64,000 bases of DNA, taken from assembly GCF_027797465.1 (NCBI RefSeq), contig NZ_CP115608.1, forward strand, positions 124,001 to 188,000. Direction: 5' to 3'. This document shows positions 1,661 to 52,217 of the stretch, piece after piece. Below the pieces are notes generated by a model. It made no database searches. It was not told where the DNA came from and worked only from the letters and a program-made list of their open reading frames with translations. The position numbers were made by a program, and so were the translations under genes. The stretch is from Campylobacter sp. CN_NE2. Lineage in GTDB: Bacteria; Campylobacterota; Campylobacteria; Campylobacterales; Campylobacteraceae. Positions within the stretch are counted from its first letter, which is position 1, and every line of letters begins with the position of its first letter.

Positions 1661-4603
1661 ATGAACTATTTTTTAGGCATAGATGTCGGTTCTACGACCG
1701 TAAAAACCGTATTACTTAACGAAGATTGCGAGATTATACACAAAAGCTATGATCGTCATTTTGCAAAGCCCAAATTTGCCGTAGCACAAACGCTTTCATT
1801 TTTAAAAGATAAATTTGCAAATTCGCAGTTTCGCGTGGCTATTACAGGCTCAGCTGGACTTGGCATTTCAAAAAGCTGTAATATCGACTTCGTTCAAGAG
1901 GTTTTTGCCACTTCGCTTGGCGTAAAAAAGGCATTTCCAAAAACCGATGTCGTTATCGAGCTTGGCGGAGAAGACGCTAAGATTTTATTTCTTACAGGCG
2001 GTGTAGAAGAGCGTATGAACGGCAGCTGCGCCGGCGGGACGGGTGCTTTTATCGACCAAATGGCAAATTTGCTAAATATTAGCCTTGCGATGCTCGATAA
2101 ATTAAGCTTTGGTTATGAAAAAATTTATCCTATCGCTTCAAGGTGTGGTGTGTTTGCCAAAAGCGATATTCAGCCACTTCTCAATCAAGGCGCTAGAAAA
2201 GAAGATATAAGTGCGAGTATCTTTAATGCAGTCGTCGAGCAGACTATTTCAGGACTTGCGCAAGGCAGAGAAGTCAAAGGAAATGTCCTATTTTTGGGCG
2301 GTCCGTTATATTTTATGCAAGGGCTTAGAAATAGTTTTAAAAAAGCCCTAAATTTAGATGAATCAAATTCTGTTTTTCCTGAGTTAGCTCCTTATTTTGT
2401 GGCTTACGGAAGTGCGCTTTATGCCAAAGATAGTGCAAAAGTGCAAAATTTAGAAGATATTTTAAATTTACTCGAACACGAACCGCACAAAGAAGTGATA
2501 AACGCAGAACCACCACTTTTTAAAGACGAGAGCGAATACAGCGAGTTTTTAAATCGCCACGCAATGGCAAGTGCGCCTAAAATGGACATTTTATCATATA
2601 GCGGAAAAGCGTATTTGGGCGTGGATTGTGGCTCAACCACAATCAAAATCGCTCTAATCGGCGAAAATAACGAACTTTTGTATAAATTTTATTCATCAAA
2701 CAAAGGCGATCCGATTGCGATTTTGCTCCCTGAGCTTAAAAAAATTTACTCTATGTGCGAAAACCGCATTAAAATCGCAGGTAGCGGCGTAACTGGATAT
2801 GGCGAAGAGCTAATAAAGGCTGCGTTTAAATTTGATTATGGCATTGTTGAGACGATCGCACATTATAGCGCGGCAAAGCATTTTAACAGGGATGTTGATT
2901 TTATCATCGACATCGGCGGACAAGATATAAAATGTTTTTCTATTAAAAACGGAAGTATCGATTCTATCGTGCTAAATGAAGCGTGTAGTTCTGGCTGTGG
3001 CTCGTTTTTGCAATCATTTGCAAATTCACTCGGATATGAGATTGGCGAATTTGCCAAAATGGCGTTGTTTGCGAAAAATCCGTCTAAATTAGGCAGTCGT
3101 TGCACCGTATTTATGAACTCATCAGTCAAACAAGCCCAAAGAGACGGCGCAGAAGTCGAAGATATAAGCGCTGGTTTGGCAATTAGCGTTATTAAAAATG
3201 CCATTTATAAGGTAATTCGTGCTAGAAGCGCCGACGAGCTGGGAGAGCATATCGTGGTTCAAGGCGGGACATTTTTAAATGATGCCGTTTTAAGGGCGTT
3301 TGAAAGAGAGCTTGGCAAAAATGTCATTAGGCTTGATATTAGCGAGATTATGGGTGCTTATGGTGCGGCACTTTTTGCCAAAAACAACGCGATTGCCACT
3401 TCAAATTTAATATCAATAGACGAACTTAATAATTTTAGCCATGAGAGCGAATTTGGCTCTTGCAAACTTTGCACAAATAAATGTGCTTTGACAATCAATA
3501 TTTTTAGCGACGGAAGCAGATTTGTAGTAGGAAACAAATGCGAACGGGGTGCCGGAAAAGAGATCAAAAATGATTTGCCAAATTTGTTTGAGTTTAAAAA
3601 TGAGCTTTTGAAACGCTACAAAAAAGCACCAAAAACAGGGCAATTAAAAGTAGGAATCCCGTTTGTCCTAAATATGTATGAAATGCTGCCGTTTTGGGCG
3701 AAATTCTTTGAAAATTTAGGCATTAGCGTGGTGCTTTCAAATCGTCCTAGAAAAGAGACGCTATTTTTATCAAGCCAAAGCATACCGTCAGATACTGTGT
3801 GTTATCCCGCTAAAATCACGCACGGACATATTTATGACCTGCTTAAAAAAGAAGTTGATTTTATTTTTTATCCGTGCATGAGCTACAATATCGACGAAAA
3901 AATCAGCGAAAACTGCTACAACTGCCCTGTGGTGGCGTATTACCCAGAACTCATCAAAGCAAATGTAGGAGCACTTAAAGATACCAAATTTATCTATCCG
4001 CATATTGATATAAATGATTTAGAATTTATGTCAAATTCGCTAAAAAATGAATTTGAAAAATTTGGCTTTAAATTTAGCCTAGAAGCTATCAAAAACGCCG
4101 TATATCACGGACAAAAAGAGTTAAATAGATACAAAAAAGCTATCCTTGCAAAAGGCGAAGAAACCTTGAAATTCGTCATAGAAAATAATCAAAATGCCGT
4201 TATTTTGGCGTCTCGCCCGTATCATATAGATAAATTTGTAAATCACGGAATCGATAAATATCTAAATTCTATCGGATTTGTCGTGCTTAGCGAAGATTGT
4301 TTGCCGCTTGAACATGTCCAAACCAAAAGCCTAAATCAATGGACTTATCACGCTAGAATGTATAATGCGGCAAATTTTGTAGCTAAATTTGACAATCTCG
4401 AACTTGTTCAGCTTGTTAGCTTTGGGTGCGGAATCGACGCCATTACAAGTGATGAGATTAGAGATTTACTAGCCAAAAAAGGCAAAATTTACACCCAGCT
4501 AAAAATCGATGAAGTTACAAATCTGGGAGCTGTAAAAATTCGCCTAAGAAGCTTGAAAGCCGCCATTTTTGAAAGAGCAAAATCAGCAAAAAAAGGAAAA
4601 TAA
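1661..4603 (+). CDS. Double-headed acyl-CoA dehydratase activase (BadF/BadG/HgdC type) with DUF2229-like domain
   Basis: A 980-residue protein with two ASKHA ATPase domains of the 2-hydroxyglutaryl-CoA dehydratase activase family. The first phosphate loop is GIDVGSTTVKT at ~6-16 and the second GVDCGSTTIK at ~320-329. Both repeats keep the cysteines that bridge a [4Fe-4S] cluster in HgdC-type activases: C123 (GSCAGGTGAF) with C162 (SRCGVF), and C442 (EACSSGCGSF) with C481 (SRCTVF). Residues ~655-900 look like the DUF2229 domain, with further cysteines (CYPAK, YPCMSY, CYNCP). The family uses ATP to drive one-electron reduction of a partner. The TTG start of the next gene abuts this stop codon, so the two form an operon. 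The substrate is unknown. Confidence 0.8.
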   Translation: MNYFLGIDVGSTTVKTVLLNEDCEIIHKSYDRHFAKPKFAVAQTLSFLKDKFANSQFRVAITGSAGLGISKSCNIDFVQEVFATSLGVKKAFPKTDVVIELGGEDAKILFLTGGVEERMNGSCAGGTGAFIDQMANLLNISLAMLDKLSFGYEKIYPIASRCGVFAKSDIQPLLNQGARKEDISASIFNAVVEQTISGLAQGREVKGNVLFLGGPLYFMQGLRNSFKKALNLDESNSVFPELAPYFVAYGSALYAKDSAKVQNLEDILNLLEHEPHKEVINAEPPLFKDESEYSEFLNRHAMASAPKMDILSYSGKAYLGVDCGSTTIKIALIGENNELLYKFYSSNKGDPIAILLPELKKIYSMCENRIKIAGSGVTGYGEELIKAAFKFDYGIVETIAHYSAAKHFNRDVDFIIDIGGQDIKCFSIKNGSIDSIVLNEACSSGCGSFLQSFANSLGYEIGEFAKMALFAKNPSKLGSRCTVFMNSSVKQAQRDGAEVEDISAGLAISVIKNAIYKVIRARSADELGEHIVVQGGTFLNDAVLRAFERELGKNVIRLDISEIMGAYGAALFAKNNAIATSNLISIDELNNFSHESEFGSCKLCTNKCALTINIFSDGSRFVVGNKCERGAGKEIKNDLPNLFEFKNELLKRYKKAPKTGQLKVGIPFVLNMYEMLPFWAKFFENLGISVVLSNRPRKETLFLSSQSIPSDTVCYPAKITHGHIYDLLKKEVDFIFYPCMSYNIDEKISENCYNCPVVAYYPELIKANVGALKDTKFIYPHIDINDLEFMSNSLKNEFEKFGFKFSLEAIKNAVYHGQKELNRYKKAILAKGEETLKFVIENNQNAVILASRPYHIDKFVNHGIDKYLNSIGFVVLSEDCLPLEHVQTKSLNQWTYHARMYNAANFVAKFDNLELVQLVSFGCGIDAITSDEIRDLLAKKGKIYTQLKIDEVTNLGAVKIRLRSLKAAIFERAKSAKKGK

Positions 4604-46234: not shown

Positions 46235-46689
46235 CAAATGCTTTTTTGATAGCGTGTTTGTTTATTTATCTGATTTTAACTTCAATGAATCAAAAATTAC
46301 CGCCGCTAATAGGGCTATTTTTTCTTCATCAAATCGTGCTAAGATTTGAAAATGAAAACAAATTTAAAAGCTACGGCGCAATGTGGTATATAGGCATACT
46401 TTATCTTTTTATAGCTGAGCAAATTCACGGATTTCATCTATTTTCAATTGCCGTTACATTTATCATTTTTTATCTTTTTATATTTGAAATTTCGATCAAA
46501 TTTATTAAATTTAGAAATTTGCTCATCGCACTTTATGTTCTTATCGGTTATGCGGGGACTTTTTTGGTTAGCAATGCTATTTCGTATGCCAAAAAAAGCG
46601 GATATTTGGTTTTTGGAAGCGAATATCTTTGGTATATTTTTATTGAAATTTTAATCGGACTTCTTATTTTTAGGGGAAGATTGGTATGA
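46183..46689 (+). CDS. Integral membrane protein in MreD position
   Basis: A protein of ~168 residues with five or so membrane segments. The start is uncertain (TTG 46165, ATG 46183 or ATG 46201, none with a clear ribosome-binding site); all overlap the acetyltransferase gene. It sits directly before mrdA, overlapping by four bases, the place MreD occupies in many bacteria, and its size fits MreD. The sequence itself is too divergent to prove it. Confidence 0.6.
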   Translation: MQKISGMQRNRSNLYAITNAFLIACLFIYLILTSMNQKLPPLIGLFFLHQIVLRFENENKFKSYGAMWYIGILYLFIAEQIHGFHLFSIAVTFIIFYLFIFEISIKFIKFRNLLIALYVLIGYAGTFLVSNAISYAKKSGYLVFGSEYLWYIFIEILIGLLIFRGRLV

Positions 46690-48518
46690 GATTAAAATTG
46701 GTTTTTTCGTTTATTCTCATATTTTGGGCTATGCTTTTGGTGCGAATTTACTATCTTTCTATCAAATCAAATGAATATTACGAAGAAATCGCCGAACAAA
46801 ATGTGGTAAAAAGCGAACTCATCGCTCCTGTTAGAGGGCAAATTTTAGATACCAAAGGCACACCATTAGCCATAAATAGGCTTGGATTTTCGATTTGGCT
46901 TGCCCCACATTTGAAAATGGGTAGCGAATTAGAAGAAGAAATTTCAGTTTTAACGGAAATTTTTTCAGAACTAAATGCTACGCAGATAAAAAAAGATTAT
47001 CAAAAACAAAATTCGCCTTACAATCAAAATTTTATAAAAGTTGTCGAATTTTTGGATTATAACGAAACCGTAAAACATTTTGCCACGCTAAATTTAAGAG
47101 ATAAATTAAAAATCGAGCCAAACTCTCAAAGGCTTTATCCGCAAAATTCCCTTGCTTCGCATGTCATCGGCTATGTGGGTCGTGCAAATTCGAAAGATAT
47201 AGAAAAAAACTATATGTCGCGTTTAACGGGATATGTCGGCAGAAGCGGCGTGGAAGGGTATTATAACGGAATTTTGCAAGGCAGTATCGGTGAGCGAAAA
47301 ACAAAAGTTACAGCCCTAAATAAAGTCGTCGAAGAAATTTCATTTGTGCCGCCTAGCAGTAGTGATATAGAGCTTACTATTGATATTCAGTTGCAAAAAC
47401 ACCTGCGTGAAATTTTTAAAAAAGACGCAGGAGTCGCCATAGTCATGGATATAAAAGACGGAGCGATACTAGCGGCGGGAAGCTTTCCTGAATATGATTT
47501 AAATCAGTTTGTAACGGGCATTAGCGCTGAAAATTGGAACGAGCTTATAAACGATTTGAGCCACCCATTTACAAATAAGCTTGTAAATGGGCTTTATCCG
47601 CCAGGTTCAGTTATAAAAATGGCGATTGGAATGTCGTTTATAAATTCGGGCAAAATCGCCGAAAATTGGGCGCCACATTGTAGCGGTGTAATGGAGCTTG
47701 GCGGGCGTAAATTTCGTTGTTGGAAAGGCTGGGGTCACGGCAAGGTAAATTTAAACGATGCCATTAGAGAGAGTTGCGATGTCTATTTTTATGAAGGAAG
47801 TTTGATTGTGGGCATTGATTATATGGCGAGTTATCTTGATAGAATGGGCTTTGGTCGCAAAACAAATGTCGATTTGCCGAACGAATTTGTAGGTACCGTG
47901 CCAAATAAAGCATGGAAAATGCAAAAATTTAAGCGCCCGTGGTATCAAGGCGAAACCGTAAATGCCTCAATCGGGCAGGGCGATATTTTGATTACACCTA
48001 TGCAAATGGCAAAACACACAGCCGAACTAGCTTCGGGGCATGGCTTGACGCCGCATTTTTTAAAAAGTATCGAAGGCGAAAAAATAGAATTTGCCCCAAA
48101 AGAGCTTTTTACGCCGACAGAAATGTTGCAACTACCGATGATAAGAAAGGCTATGTTTGAAGTTGCAAATCACGAAAAAGGCACTGCAACAAAGGTTTTG
48201 CAAGGTATCGTTGTGCCGATTGCAGCTAAAACAGGCACGGCTCAGGTCGTAGGAATTTCGCAAACGGAAAAAACTCGCATGAAGGAAGCCGATATGGAGT
48301 ATTATCAACGCTCACACGCATGGATGACGACATTTGGACCTTATGAAAAACCACAATATGCAGTAACCGTGCTAGTCGAGCATGGCGGCGGCGGCGGAAG
48401 TGCAGCCGGTCCAAAAGTAAAGCAAATTTATGAAAAACTTGTTGAGCTTGGTTACATAAAAATCCCTGAACCTACGGAAAAATCGGATAAAAAAGTGCAG
48501 AAAAGAAAAAATAATTAA
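46686..48518 (+). CDS. mrdA: Penicillin-binding protein 2, elongation transpeptidase
   Basis: A 610-residue class B PBP: an N-terminal membrane anchor, a pedestal domain (~50-230), and a transpeptidase domain with S-x-x-K in PPGSVIKMA, S-x-N-type ESCDVYF and KTGTAQVVG. It cross-links the peptidoglycan polymerised by RodA in the elongasome. Its 3' end overlaps the convergent OsmC-like gene by four bases, with no room for a separate terminator. Confidence 0.93.
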   Translation: MRLKLVFSFILIFWAMLLVRIYYLSIKSNEYYEEIAEQNVVKSELIAPVRGQILDTKGTPLAINRLGFSIWLAPHLKMGSELEEEISVLTEIFSELNATQIKKDYQKQNSPYNQNFIKVVEFLDYNETVKHFATLNLRDKLKIEPNSQRLYPQNSLASHVIGYVGRANSKDIEKNYMSRLTGYVGRSGVEGYYNGILQGSIGERKTKVTALNKVVEEISFVPPSSSDIELTIDIQLQKHLREIFKKDAGVAIVMDIKDGAILAAGSFPEYDLNQFVTGISAENWNELINDLSHPFTNKLVNGLYPPGSVIKMAIGMSFINSGKIAENWAPHCSGVMELGGRKFRCWKGWGHGKVNLNDAIRESCDVYFYEGSLIVGIDYMASYLDRMGFGRKTNVDLPNEFVGTVPNKAWKMQKFKRPWYQGETVNASIGQGDILITPMQMAKHTAELASGHGLTPHFLKSIEGEKIEFAPKELFTPTEMLQLPMIRKAMFEVANHEKGTATKVLQGIVVPIAAKTGTAQVVGISQTEKTRMKEADMEYYQRSHAWMTTFGPYEKPQYAVTVLVEHGGGGGSAAGPKVKQIYEKLVELGYIKIPEPTEKSDKKVQKRKNN

Positions 48519-48967
48519 ATTATTTGTTCGAATTTAATCTTTAAATTTAGTGAATTTTGCAAATTTTGATATATCAAATTTCGCTTTAACGCTTCGTTTG
48601 TAAATTTGCTAAATTCATCATCGCTCATATCGCTTGAAATGTAAATTTTTATCTCGCAAAGCTCGATTTTTGGGCTATCATCATAGCCGATGACATTTAA
48701 AATGGTTAGCGAATTTGAAATTTCAAATTTAATCTTGCCTTCCATTTCTAAAATGGCGATTTTTTTGAATTTTGCAAATTCATAAATTCCAGCCAAAACT
48801 CCACCTAAAAGGCTACTTGCGAAATAATCAAGCGAACTTTTTTCCGTGCTTTTTATATCAAAATTTATCTGATTTGATATTATTATCTCATCATTTGGCG
48901 TAAAAAGCTTGATTTTGTTTTCTCGCAAAACGGCTCGGTATTTAGCATTAAATTTTTCAAATTCCAT
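48515..48967 (-). CDS. OsmC-like protein
   Basis: A 150-residue soluble protein whose pattern (SSLDYFASSLLGGVLAGIYEFAK helix, then beta strands with LNVIGYDDSPKIELCEIKIYI and a helix FTNEALKRNLIYQ) resembles the OsmC/Ohr fold. The two catalytic cysteines of peroxide-reducing members are not in their usual places (the helix has Gly/Leu, and the later Cys is replaced by Asn in KRNLIYQ), so peroxidase activity is doubtful. Last gene of the minus-strand set. Confidence 0.5.
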   Translation of the reverse strand: MEFEKFNAKYRAVLRENKIKLFTPNDEIIISNQINFDIKSTEKSSLDYFASSLLGGVLAGIYEFAKFKKIAILEMEGKIKFEISNSLTILNVIGYDDSPKIELCEIKIYISSDMSDDEFSKFTNEALKRNLIYQNLQNSLNLKIKFEQII

Positions 48968-50129
48968 ATTTTTCTCTAAGTGCGATTTTAGCGTTATTTA
49001 GTGCGTTTAGTTTAGCTTTGATTATATCGTAAGAATTTAGCGTTCTATTTGCAAAAGTGGCAAAACCACAATCAGGATTTAGCAAAATGCGATTTTTAGG
49101 GATAAATTTAAGCAAATTTTCTGCCCTTTGCACGATTTCATCTACGCTTTCGATTTTATCATTTCTAGGATTTATCACGCCAAGTCCGATAGTAGCGTGA
49201 TTTCGCATAAATTCATTTTTAAAAAGCGTTTGGATTTCCCCGGCTCTTGGTGTTGCAAATTCAAGCATAAAAATTTCACAGCCTGATTTTTCAAAAAGCT
49301 TTAAAAGCCCGTCATAAGAGCCTTTTAGTAAAATACTTTCATCCTTACTCCAATTTCCCCTACAAACATGCAAAGCTGTTTTGATATTTTTGCTTTTTGC
49401 ATATTTTATTAAGTTTTCTATCAAATTTGAAGCAAATTCTAGCTCTTCTTCATAGTTTTTTTTCTCGCTAAGTGCAGCACACATAAACGATCTTGTCTGC
49501 TCTTTTGAAAAGAGAATTTCGGTTAGCACAGGCTCGTCAAACTGCACCAAATCAACACCAAATTCAGCCAAATCATCGATTTCGGCTTTTAAAATTTCCA
49601 AAACATCTACGCTTAGGCTTTCTTTATCGTCATAAAAATGCGATGAAAGTTCGCCAAGCCACATCGAGCGAGTTAGCAGATAAATGCCCGGCAAAGTGGC
49701 CTTTAAAGGGCGATTTGTAAATTTTTTAACTAGCTTCATTTCACCCAGCACAAGCGGGTTTTTTCGTTTTACTTTGCCGACACAAACGGCGTTTTTAATG
49801 GCAAGAGCAGGGACATCTAAAATTTCAAGCATATCTTCAAAACGCTGTTTTTGTGGCATAAAATCAAGCATTTCGCTCATACTCATTAGCTTTGCACCAG
49901 CTATTTTTTCGCTTACAAATGAAAGGTAATTATCCCTATTAAGCTCACCGCTTGTGATAAAATCAATGTCAAATTTTTCTTGCAAACGAACGACTTTTTC
50001 AGTCTCTTTTTGCAAAATATTATCAACTTCGCTTTTTGAAATTTTACCCAAAATTTGCTTTTTTCGTGCAAGTAAAAGCTCTTGTGAGCGTGGCATTGAC
50101 CCCATTAGCGAAGTTGAAAAAGCTTTCAT
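48957..50129 (-). CDS. Core methionine-synthase-like protein (MetE C-terminal domain type)
   Basis: A ~390-residue TIM barrel resembling only the catalytic half of cobalamin-independent methionine synthase. Zinc ligands are kept: H254 and C256 in LHVCRGN, and C354 in NPDCGFAT; QFDEPVLTE is the substrate-binding strand. The N-terminal domain for triglutamyl-folate is missing, so the methyl donor may be something else. The ATG at 50129 has GGAT upstream; a TTG at 50141 is the alternative. It is adjacent to the PhnD-like gene. Confidence 0.75.
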   Translation of the reverse strand: MKAFSTSLMGSMPRSQELLLARKKQILGKISKSEVDNILQKETEKVVRLQEKFDIDFITSGELNRDNYLSFVSEKIAGAKLMSMSEMLDFMPQKQRFEDMLEILDVPALAIKNAVCVGKVKRKNPLVLGEMKLVKKFTNRPLKATLPGIYLLTRSMWLGELSSHFYDDKESLSVDVLEILKAEIDDLAEFGVDLVQFDEPVLTEILFSKEQTRSFMCAALSEKKNYEEELEFASNLIENLIKYAKSKNIKTALHVCRGNWSKDESILLKGSYDGLLKLFEKSGCEIFMLEFATPRAGEIQTLFKNEFMRNHATIGLGVINPRNDKIESVDEIVQRAENLLKFIPKNRILLNPDCGFATFANRTLNSYDIIKAKLNALNNAKIALREKYGI

Positions 50130-50130
50130 T

Positions 50131-50937
50131 TTAATATCCAAAAAAGCTTAGATACTCATTTGCCTGAGTGATTTGAACAAAGCCTTTTGTGCGACCACTG
50201 ACCCACTTTTTAAGACCTTCTAAATCCATCATCTCTTTGTGTTTTGGATTGTTATAATCCATTAAAAATAGCACTTTTTCAAATTCATTTAGCAAATTTT
50301 TATCAAAATCGCTTCTAGCGTTGAAAATGCAGTGGTCAAATAGTGCCGTTTCATCTAAAATGACAAATTTATCTTTATCCAAAGTGCCATCACTTGCCCA
50401 ACGCTCATAGTTCATATCAAGCATCCATGAAGCCGATACTTCGCCTTTTTCGAGCGCTTTAAAGGCGTCTAGCTCGCCACCGACATGATCGCCATGTAGT
50501 CCCACGCCGATGTCAAATCGAACTTCTTCATAATCACTACCAAATTCAAGTCCGTTTAAATGCAAGTGATTTATCGGAATTAGCCTTGCTTGTGGCGAAT
50601 CATAAGCTCCAAAGCCGATTTTTTTGCCCTTTAAATCGCTTAAATTTGCAATCTCTTTTGTCGTTACTAGATAAGATTTTCTATCGTTATCGGTATCTCT
50701 CATGGCTGAGTTTAAAACGCTTCCTTTGCTTCGCAAAAATGCGTCTAAGTAGGCTAATGGCGAATTCCACGCAATGTCGATTTCGCCTTTTAAAAGTGCA
50801 TCGACTTGCATTTTATAATCTTTAAAGAAAACAGGCTCTAAATTTAGTCCGTTTTCTTTGAAAAAATCAGCGATAATGCCCCAAATAACAGTAACTTGTG
50901 GTGCGTAGATGACGGCTCCTAGTTTTATTGTTTGCAT
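50131..50937 (-). CDS. PhnD-like periplasmic-binding-fold protein without a signal peptide
   Basis: A 268-residue protein of the phosphate/phosphite/phosphonate-binding PhnD family: it opens IKLGAVIYAPQV, and has GEIDIAWNSPLAYL, LKGKKIGFGAYDSPQA and HGDHVGGELDAFKALEKGE. There is no signal peptide or lipobox, so it should be cytosolic and act as an enzyme or ligand carrier rather than a transporter component. No ABC genes are adjacent. AAGGAAAATTT lies upstream. Confidence 0.72.
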   Translation of the reverse strand: MQTIKLGAVIYAPQVTVIWGIIADFFKENGLNLEPVFFKDYKMQVDALLKGEIDIAWNSPLAYLDAFLRSKGSVLNSAMRDTDNDRKSYLVTTKEIANLSDLKGKKIGFGAYDSPQARLIPINHLHLNGLEFGSDYEEVRFDIGVGLHGDHVGGELDAFKALEKGEVSASWMLDMNYERWASDGTLDKDKFVILDETALFDHCIFNARSDFDKNLLNEFEKVLFLMDYNNPKHKEMMDLEGLKKWVSGRTKGFVQITQANEYLSFFGY

Positions 50938-50985
50938 AAATTTTCCTTATTAAATTTAAATTTGCAAATTTGCATTGCAAATGCC

Positions 50986-51080
50986 GACAGATTGGGGCGT
51001 TTATGAGCAAAACGAGTGAAACGCTAGACTGGTATGTCTGCGTGAGCGAGTTTTGTGATATATCGCCCCAAGATTAGGCT
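50986..51080 (-). repeat. Intergenic palindromic repeat, diverged copy 4 (AGCCTA family)
   Basis: Read on the minus strand it starts CAGCCTAATCTTGGGGCG, contains the pair CGCCCCAA/TTGGGGCG (51064-51071 and 50992-50999) and nested arms around CAAAAC/GTTTTG, and ends ATCTGTC. The plan is that of copies 1 and 2: AGCCTA after a stop codon, palindrome, CTGTC. It lies 18 bases after the acyl-CoA-dehydrogenase-like stop, in its sense direction. Confidence 0.5.
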
Positions 51081-51098
51081 GGTTTATTTCTAAATTTA

Positions 51099-52217
51099 CT
51101 ATATCTCTTGACCTGTGATTGCTTTTCCTAGCCATATAGTAAGCACATCGACGCTTGGCGCCATAATCTGACTTGCTAGGCTATCACGCAAATATCGCTC
51201 CATATTTCCAAATTTATTATACGCCTTTCCGCCGCCAATTCGCATACCGATATTTGCTAGTTCTATCGCACTTTCACTTGCAAAAATTCTTGCACTTAGA
51301 AGCTTAGCAAACGCTTCTTCTTCGCCATTTGCGATGGCTTTTGCAGCTTCTTTTGTGCCAAGAACTGCTGCATTTGTTTTAGCATAAATTTTTGCTAGGT
51401 GAATTTGGACTGTTTCAATCGCACAAAGTGGTTTATCATCGCCATATTTTCGCGTTGTAGAATGCGAAATAGCTTCATTTAAAATCGCCTTACAAACACC
51501 GCTATAAACGGCTGCCAAACCACATACAAAAAGTGGTGCAATGCCGTTAAAAACCTGCTCCATACCAGTATCTGGACTACCTATGCGAAATTTATTATTT
51601 AGTTTTAGATTGTCCATTTTCATCTGGCAAGATACATTTGCTCTCATGCCAAGCCCGTTCCAGCTGTTGCTTAAAAACTCCAAGCCTTGCGTTCCAAGCG
51701 GAATGCACCAGTTATCGATGCCGTCTTTGCCGCGGGCTAAAACAAGATAAAAACTTGCGTATCCGCCACTTGTAACCATGCTTTTTAAGCCATTTAGCGT
51801 GGTAGTATCGGCTTCAAAACTAGCTGTCGTATCAGGCATATAAAAGTGTGTTCCACTTCCAAGCTCGCTATATGCAAGGGCGGCGAATTTTTTCTCTTCT
51901 ACGATAGATTTGAAAACCTCTTTTTTAAGCTCGTCGCTACCATATTTGTTTAAGCAAAATAACGCAACATTGCTCATCATATAACAAAGCCCGACACTAG
52001 CCGAACTTTCGGCAAACGCCATACAAATTTCAGCGTGTTCTTCTATGCCAAGTCCAGCCCCGCCATACTCTTTTGGGATAACTAACGAAAAATATCCTTC
52101 ATTTGCTATTTCTTTAAAGGTTTCAACCGCAAATGCCTTATTTTCGTCATTTGCAACTACGAACGGATCAATGTGTTTTTTGGCAAATTCTCTTGCCTTT
52201 TTGTAGATTTCTGACAT
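51099..52217 (-). CDS. Acyl-CoA dehydrogenase-like flavoprotein lacking the usual catalytic Glu
   Basis: A 372-residue protein with the acyl-CoA dehydrogenase fold: helical N-terminus with VIPKEYGGAGLGIEEHAEI, the flavin/substrate region YSELGSGTHF...MVTSGGYAS, and the C-terminal helical domain NIGMRIGGGKAYNKFGNMERYLRD. The usual C-terminal YEGT carrying the base is MAPS here (residue 353 is Ala). It may use another base, or be a flavin monooxygenase of the DszC/SfnC kind. AGGACTTGA is upstream. Confidence 0.75.
   Translation of the reverse strand: MSEIYKKAREFAKKHIDPFVVANDENKAFAVETFKEIANEGYFSLVIPKEYGGAGLGIEEHAEICMAFAESSASVGLCYMMSNVALFCLNKYGSDELKKEVFKSIVEEKKFAALAYSELGSGTHFYMPDTTASFEADTTTLNGLKSMVTSGGYASFYLVLARGKDGIDNWCIPLGTQGLEFLSNSWNGLGMRANVSCQMKMDNLKLNNKFRIGSPDTGMEQVFNGIAPLFVCGLAAVYSGVCKAILNEAISHSTTRKYGDDKPLCAIETVQIHLAKIYAKTNAAVLGTKEAAKAIANGEEEAFAKLLSARIFASESAIELANIGMRIGGGKAYNKFGNMERYLRDSLASQIMAPSVDVLTIWLGKAITGQEI

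Follow-up and report, generated by a model that had tools for sequence, protein, structure and literature searches.

Gene content of the locus

The window analysed here is a 64,000-nt stretch of the genome of Campylobacter sp. CN_NE2 (contig NZ_CP115608.1, positions 124,001 to 188,000; host genome 1.54 Mb, 99.9% complete). Its minus strand carries at 48515-52217 four intact open reading frames in a row, as proposed in a first-pass annotation made from the sequence alone. From 52217 down to 48515 they encode a flavoprotein of the acyl-CoA dehydrogenase (ACAD) type, a PhnD-like substrate-binding protein (SBP), a core MetE-like protein and an OsmC-like protein (Table 1). The ACAD and SBP genes are separated by 161 bp. 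The last three genes, described in that annotation as adjacent or overlapping, are indeed so, with 1 bp between SBP and MetE and an overlap of 11 bp between MetE and OsmC. The most likely start of the MetE-like gene is the ATG at 50129, the listed TTG at 50141 being probably unused. At its other end the OsmC-like gene overlaps by 4 bp a convergent gene (46686-48518).

Table 1. Features of the four-gene set in the window.
Feature	Position	Strand	Length
First gene of the set: ACAD-like flavoprotein of Rv1679/FadE16 type, scoring under the cut-off of that model	51099..52217	-	372 aa
80-nt hairpin, TTGGGGCG...CGCCCCAA, inside the ACAD-SBP gap	50992..51071	-	
PhnD/PtxB-fold SBP-like protein, cytosolic, Rv1680-type but under that model's cut-off	50131..50937	-	268 aa
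Core MetE-like zinc methyltransferase (predicted) without folate domain	48957..50129	-	390 aa from ATG
OsmC-fold protein without both catalytic cysteines	48515..48967	-	150 aa

Distribution and mobility of the set

A scan of 84,980 species, each represented by a single genome, with an SBP alignment yielded 80 loci, which were analysed by gene finding, clustering and a tblastn census seeded with the SBP alone. All four genes are adjacent in 45 of these 80 SBP-found loci. The carriers of the complete set include Pseudomonadota (Haemophilus, Neomegalonema), Bacillota (Oribacterium, Parvimonas, Veillonella, Bacillus, Paenibacillus, lactobacilli) and members of the Planctomycetota, Armatimonadota, Nitrospinota and Synergistota. 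Gene order is variable (ACAD-SBP-MetE-OsmC, OsmC-ACAD-SBP-MetE or OsmC-SBP-MetE-ACAD) but membership is constant, exceptions in the MetE-type clade being mostly short or contig-end loci. No recurrent fifth family was found in the MetE-type loci, where ACAD, SBP and OsmC are the sole conserved neighbours. The four genes are a real unit whose co-occurrence is far beyond chance. Followed through the SBP, their homologues are not dispersed without each other, the pattern that the first-pass annotation had set against its own grouping. Clustering across many phyla strongly supports a joint role of the four genes.

Sequence comparison indicates that the set moves horizontally: the proteins of the window resemble their counterparts in other phyla no less than those in a congener (for the SBP, 68% identity with Oribacterium and 66% with a congener), and core MetE has no match in a same-species genome (G110). 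In a very close relative (L011/L014, proteins 93-96% identical) the set lies beside different genes, which together with G110 points to strain-level gain or loss. Decayed copies are present in G010 and Gemella and probably in Companilactobacillus.

A constant ACAD-SBP pair with interchangeable partners

The initial four-gene grouping holds as a unit but was incomplete. ACAD-SBP is the constant pair, and MetE with OsmC is one of three partner sets. With more distant SBPs (33-40% identity), 26 loci combine the ACAD with a diiron protein. Its ferritin-like domain has conserved Glu and ExxH residues (E199, E233/H236, E283, E313/H316). The model of its N-terminal domain matches TusA (TM-score of 0.81 on the TusA side, 2.1 Å), with the TusA cysteine absent; the diiron part is modelled with low confidence and the mean predicted local distance difference test score (pLDDT) is 71.6 overall. 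Diiron-ACAD-SBP forms a fixed three-gene set in Helicobacter, Arcobacter, Brachyspira and Paenibacillus (L013, L066-L093). We know of no description of a Cys-less TusA-like/diiron protein accompanying an ACAD and an SBP.

In actinobacteria, M. vanbaalenii among them, the pair goes with the radical SAM (S-adenosylmethionine) protein Rv1681 (MoeX) and the membrane protein Rv1678, both absent from the MetE-type loci. The Mycobacterium Rv1678-Rv1681 set (fadE16, Rv1680, moeX; NCBIfam models NF049984, NF049985, NF049973 and NF049986) has the ACAD-SBP pair in common with the window but combines it with a radical SAM protein and a DoxX-like membrane protein and contains neither MetE nor OsmC. The window proteins also score well under the NCBIfam cut-offs: 212 of 600 bits for the ACAD against the Rv1679/FadE16 model (cut-off 600) and 179 of 400 bits for the SBP against the Rv1680 model (cut-off 400). 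Among the papers searched, none deals with the function of Rv1678-Rv1681 or with the four-gene combination. In three Bacilli loci (L046, L047, L117) NhaC-family transporters, 47-62% identical, are encoded directly beside the ACAD-SBP pair and are possibly importers of the substrate.

Predicted properties of the four proteins

The core MetE-like protein matches Pfam Meth_synt_2 and has no complete N-terminal domain. Pfam and residue alignment agree with the earlier description of a protein that keeps its zinc ligands and has lost the folate domain. The zinc ligands H254, C256, E290 and C354 and the homocysteine residues S11, E62 and D198 are invariant; their E. coli MetE counterparts are H641, C643, E665 and C726 for zinc and S433, E484 and D599 for homocysteine (PMC7857596). 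Judged by these residues, the protein has all that is needed to bind zinc and homocysteine. It shares the catalytic barrel and both sites with canonical cobalamin-independent MetE, from which it differs by the missing N-terminal folate domain and an identity of 24% over the aligned barrel. A barrel without folate domain that keeps the zinc and homocysteine residues is the sequence signature of the core methionine synthases MesA-MesD (PMC7857596). The dedicated partner protein of MesD is a further likeness. However, the window-type set has no adjacent DUF1852 (MesX) gene and no sign of a corrinoid partner, occurs in obligate anaerobes and has constant ACAD-SBP neighbours.

The ACAD-like flavoprotein matches all ACAD domains of Pfam. 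Ala353 stands at the position of the YEGT glutamate, as had been proposed, and is at least 95% conserved in 68 homologues. Phe230 occupies the place where ordinary ACADs conserve the helix-G Arg. Electron transfer flavoprotein (ETF), the electron acceptor of acyl-CoA dehydrogenases, is absent in 14 of the 18 sampled MetE-type hosts. With the catalytic base and the Arg gone and ETF mostly missing, ordinary acyl-CoA dehydrogenation by the window-type ACAD is unlikely. The next-best families include 3-sulfinopropanoyl-CoA desulfinase, SfnB and DszC. The desulfinase AcdDPN likewise has an ACAD fold with neither catalytic base nor ETF dependence, but the window protein scores 118 of 600 bits for it and the set has no CoA-linked gene.

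The SBP matches Pfam Phosphonate-bd. The signal peptide reported missing from it is indeed absent, the protein opening directly at the first strand as its homologues do, and no permease or ATPase gene of a phosphonate ATP-binding cassette (ABC) transporter is adjacent. Conserved residues are W57-N58, R80-D81-T82-D83, D113-S114 and the invariant H202-C203. The structure model (pLDDT of 95) is closest to PtxB and PhnD1. ArrX and AioX, which bind arsenicals, have a similar fold too, but the sequence similarity to these sensors is low. At the Ser-Thr-Ser phosphonate contacts of PhnD/PtxB the protein has S114-P115-Q116. Two of the three contacts are changed and the set has no phn genes, which led us to reject phosphonate use. 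THI5, MqnA/MqnD and thiaminase I are cytosolic enzymes with a periplasmic-binding-protein fold, a precedent for such a fold used as an enzyme inside the cell, but they belong to other SBP families. Thiamine pyrimidine synthesis by a THI5-like SBP was rejected, Thi5 being merely a distant fold match and the CCCFC motif absent.

The OsmC-like protein scores just under the Pfam OsmC cut-off and has no sequence match in the PDB. Alignment with Cys-bearing relatives reveals that both catalytic cysteines of OsmC/Ohr thiol peroxidases are absent, so that the suspected loss of the peroxidatic Cys is borne out. A thioredoxin gene is convergent to OsmC in Haemophilus and Gemella (L018 9582-9905; L122 9871-10176).

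The strong hairpin of the ACAD-SBP gap (z of -4.7, computed on the whole 161-bp gap) is single-copy in the window, and none of the loci outside the window's own genome has an exact match to a 24-base stretch of it. Since the gap is far shorter in most other loci, the hairpin is probably a local insertion. Riboswitch or T-box control of the set was rejected: no SAM, T-box, cobalamin or thiamine pyrophosphate (TPP) element was found at gathering score near the 21 loci scanned, and the only RNA elements found in the window are two tRNAs.

Selenium and sulfur genes near the set

In five loci the whole set or some of its genes have selenium genes (selA, selB, selD, yedE, yedF) as neighbours; the flanks of most loci have none. 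Of these sel and yed genes, only a yedF fragment in G339 (106 of 110 bits) falls short of its curated cut-off. Two Lactobacillales (G339, G499) have genes of the set inside selD-selB-selA runs. G339 reads on one strand yedF-like, ACAD, SBP, MetE, OsmC, ACAD, ACAD, selD, selB, selA, with a tRNA-Sec next to this row of genes. G499 reads on one strand nhaC-ACAD-SBP-selD-yedF-DUF3343-selB-selA, with a glycine reductase selenoprotein gene nearby. In a Nitrospinota metagenome-assembled genome (MAG; L056) selD adjoins the set, divergent to OsmC-ACAD-SBP-MetE. Gemella has yedF directly before a decayed second MetE, and in the diiron-type locus L088 yedE and yedF directly follow the SBP of diiron-ACAD-SBP. 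The strongest evidence from gene context is that for selenium, an element not mentioned in the first-pass annotation.

Sulfur genes occur as well. Divergent ACAD-SBP pairs of Facklamia and G394 are accompanied by cysK, cystathionine gamma-lyase/synthase genes and sulfonate-type ABC transporters, and in L051 a methionine gamma-lyase-like gene lies just upstream of the set. A long cluster of G394 (L114 1548-18600), which looks like a large organosulfur locus, combines 2-hydroxyacyl-CoA dehydratase-like genes, cysK, a cystathionine gamma-synthase gene, two ACAD-SBP pairs, two ABC transporters and a Cys-bearing OsmC. Elsewhere in the window, at 1661-4603, a 980-aa protein contains two segments with about 29% identity to the 2-hydroxyacyl-CoA dehydratase activator-like protein encoded in L114.

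Methionine metabolism of the carriers

The core MetE is the sole methionine-synthase candidate in five carriers: a Campylobacter (G003), Parvimonas micra, Facklamia languida, an Ezakiella MAG and Gemella bergeri. Exactly these five also have no methylenetetrahydrofolate reductase (MTHFR). Full-length PF01053 transsulfuration/sulfhydrylation enzymes are kept in G003, Parvimonas, Facklamia and Gemella, and LuxS in G003, Facklamia and Gemella. MTHFR is matched in the other 13 of the 18 sampled carriers, and most also possess a full MetE or MetH-type gene. Eight genomes of Campylobacteraceae have MetY but neither MetE nor the set, and in this family MetE loss is common without gain of the set. A general replacement of missing MetE/MetF by the set fits the five carriers and was rejected on account of these MetE-less, MetY-bearing Campylobacteraceae, which usually do without it. 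MTHFR is highly divergent in this family, often at 20-40 bits to PF02219, and commonly lies near MetE (e.g. G000:C1:975265-975570). Parvimonas, Veillonella, Oribacterium and Ezakiella are obligate anaerobes, so an oxygen requirement of the MetE-type version is unlikely.

Proposed role and alternatives

We privilege, with belief and doubt in about equal parts, the hypothesis that the set is a cassette, spread by horizontal transfer, that salvages methylated organic compounds of selenium and/or sulfur. In its favour are the four-gene census and the 26 diiron-type loci, the selenium and sulfur neighbours, the intact zinc and homocysteine site of MetE, the replaced ACAD base and the lack of ETF in most sampled hosts. 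The cytosolic SBP would bind a small sulfur or selenium compound and hand it to the ACAD-like flavoprotein. The latter would open or activate the C-S or C-Se bond in a redox-neutral or ETF-independent manner, without acyl-CoA dehydrogenation. The MetE-like enzyme would then pass the methyl group on to homocysteine held by the zinc, so that methionine is formed and a selenol or thiol is released, which may feed SelD or sulfur assimilation. OsmC could be a non-catalytic binding or structural partner. In the other sets a diiron oxygenase or radical SAM protein would put a different chemistry at the service of the same ACAD-SBP core. Methyl transfer from the sulfur or selenium compound to homocysteine appears to be the simplest way to join the roles of SBP-ACAD and MetE. 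Such a transfer had been guessed at in the first-pass annotation; the full conservation of zinc and homocysteine residues supports it. The sulfur part of its substrate guess is supported, and the phosphorus part is not, in view of the altered SBP contacts.

The published precedent for such a purpose is the Type 1 mlp clusters of methyl-selenide/methyl-sulfur metabolism, to which the conversion of methylselenide back into methionine has been ascribed as a proposal, with assays of part of it (PMC10418091). They share with the window-type set a sporadic distribution, methyltransferases of the UroD/MetE superfamily and neighbours including selABCD and glycine reductase genes. However, they have corrinoid proteins and a reductive activase, neither of which is in the window-type set, and the latter adds the ACAD-like flavoprotein and the cytosolic SBP.

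Several points weigh against the salvage hypothesis. Within about 7 kb, the majority of the 80 loci show neither a selenium nor a sulfur gene. The selenium link emerged from an open-ended search for context, so that the rough chance expectation, 0.1-0.2 loci with selD within 7 kb among the approximately 53 MetE-type loci, is only indicative. The selD run of G499 holds ACAD-SBP without MetE, hence MetE is not needed in every selenium context. M. tuberculosis, which carries the actinobacterial radical SAM form, does not to our knowledge use selenium. Finally, we infer the substrate, the ACAD-SBP step and the role of OsmC.

The main rival is a fifth folate- and cobalamin-independent methionine synthase of the 'Mes' type. 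There ACAD, SBP and OsmC would make or hold a methyl donor from central metabolism, MetE would make methionine from homocysteine and the selenium neighbours would be incidental. It draws on the five carriers whose only candidate synthase is the core MetE and which have no MTHFR, on the PF01053 enzymes and LuxS retained in most of them, and on the published precedent of MesD/MesX (PMC7857596). We nevertheless find it rather unlikely: most sampled carriers have MTHFR and another methionine synthase, the set is no regular replacement in Campylobacteraceae, the SAM, T-box, cobalamin and TPP elements sought near the scanned loci are missing, and the selD/yedF runs and MetE-free variants are left unexplained. 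The two hypotheses could both hold, methyl salvage being also methionine synthesis.

Lower still we place general scavenging of sulfonates, sulfinates or thioethers, in which ACAD-SBP would cleave C-S bonds and the MetE-like protein would move a non-methyl alkyl group or serve another thiol. The next-best families of the ACAD, the cysK, cystathionine gamma-lyase and sulfonate-type transporter genes beside divergent pairs and the TusA-like domain of the diiron partner all suggest it. Yet in MetE-type loci the selenium genes lie nearer and look more like parts of an operon than the sulfur genes do, and conservation of the homocysteine residues is complete; we hold this hypothesis improbable. Resistance to metalloids or organometals (e.g. 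methylated arsenic or tellurium) by demethylation would suit the sporadic spread of the set and the ArrX/AioX-like fold of the SBP, but no ars, mer or tellurite gene was recognised adjoining the sets whose neighbours were examined and the sequence similarity to arsenical sensors is low; we regard it as very improbable. That four unrelated housekeeping genes became neighbours by accident has in its favour the broad enzyme family of each; contradicted by the census, where the four-gene set is conserved across many phyla, its chance is negligible.

Coming back to the salvage hypothesis, we advance more tentatively, and with doubt outweighing confidence, a wider principle. A cytosolic SBP fold and a base-less ACAD-fold flavoenzyme would cleave C-Se/C-S bonds with no need of ETF, and the group set free would be dealt with, depending on lineage and oxygen supply, by an exchangeable partner (zinc MetE-like, TusA-like/diiron or radical SAM). 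The window type would recycle methylselenide to methionine and selenide in a corrinoid-free, folate-free and oxygen-independent way. If true, oral, gut and soil bacteria could retrieve both selenium and methyl groups from methylated compounds without cobalamin, and a conserved set in which none of the four proteins seems fit for its textbook job would be accounted for. The known range of core methionine synthases would be widened, and the mycobacterial fadE16, Rv1680 and moeX would gain a testable place in sulfur/selenium chemistry.

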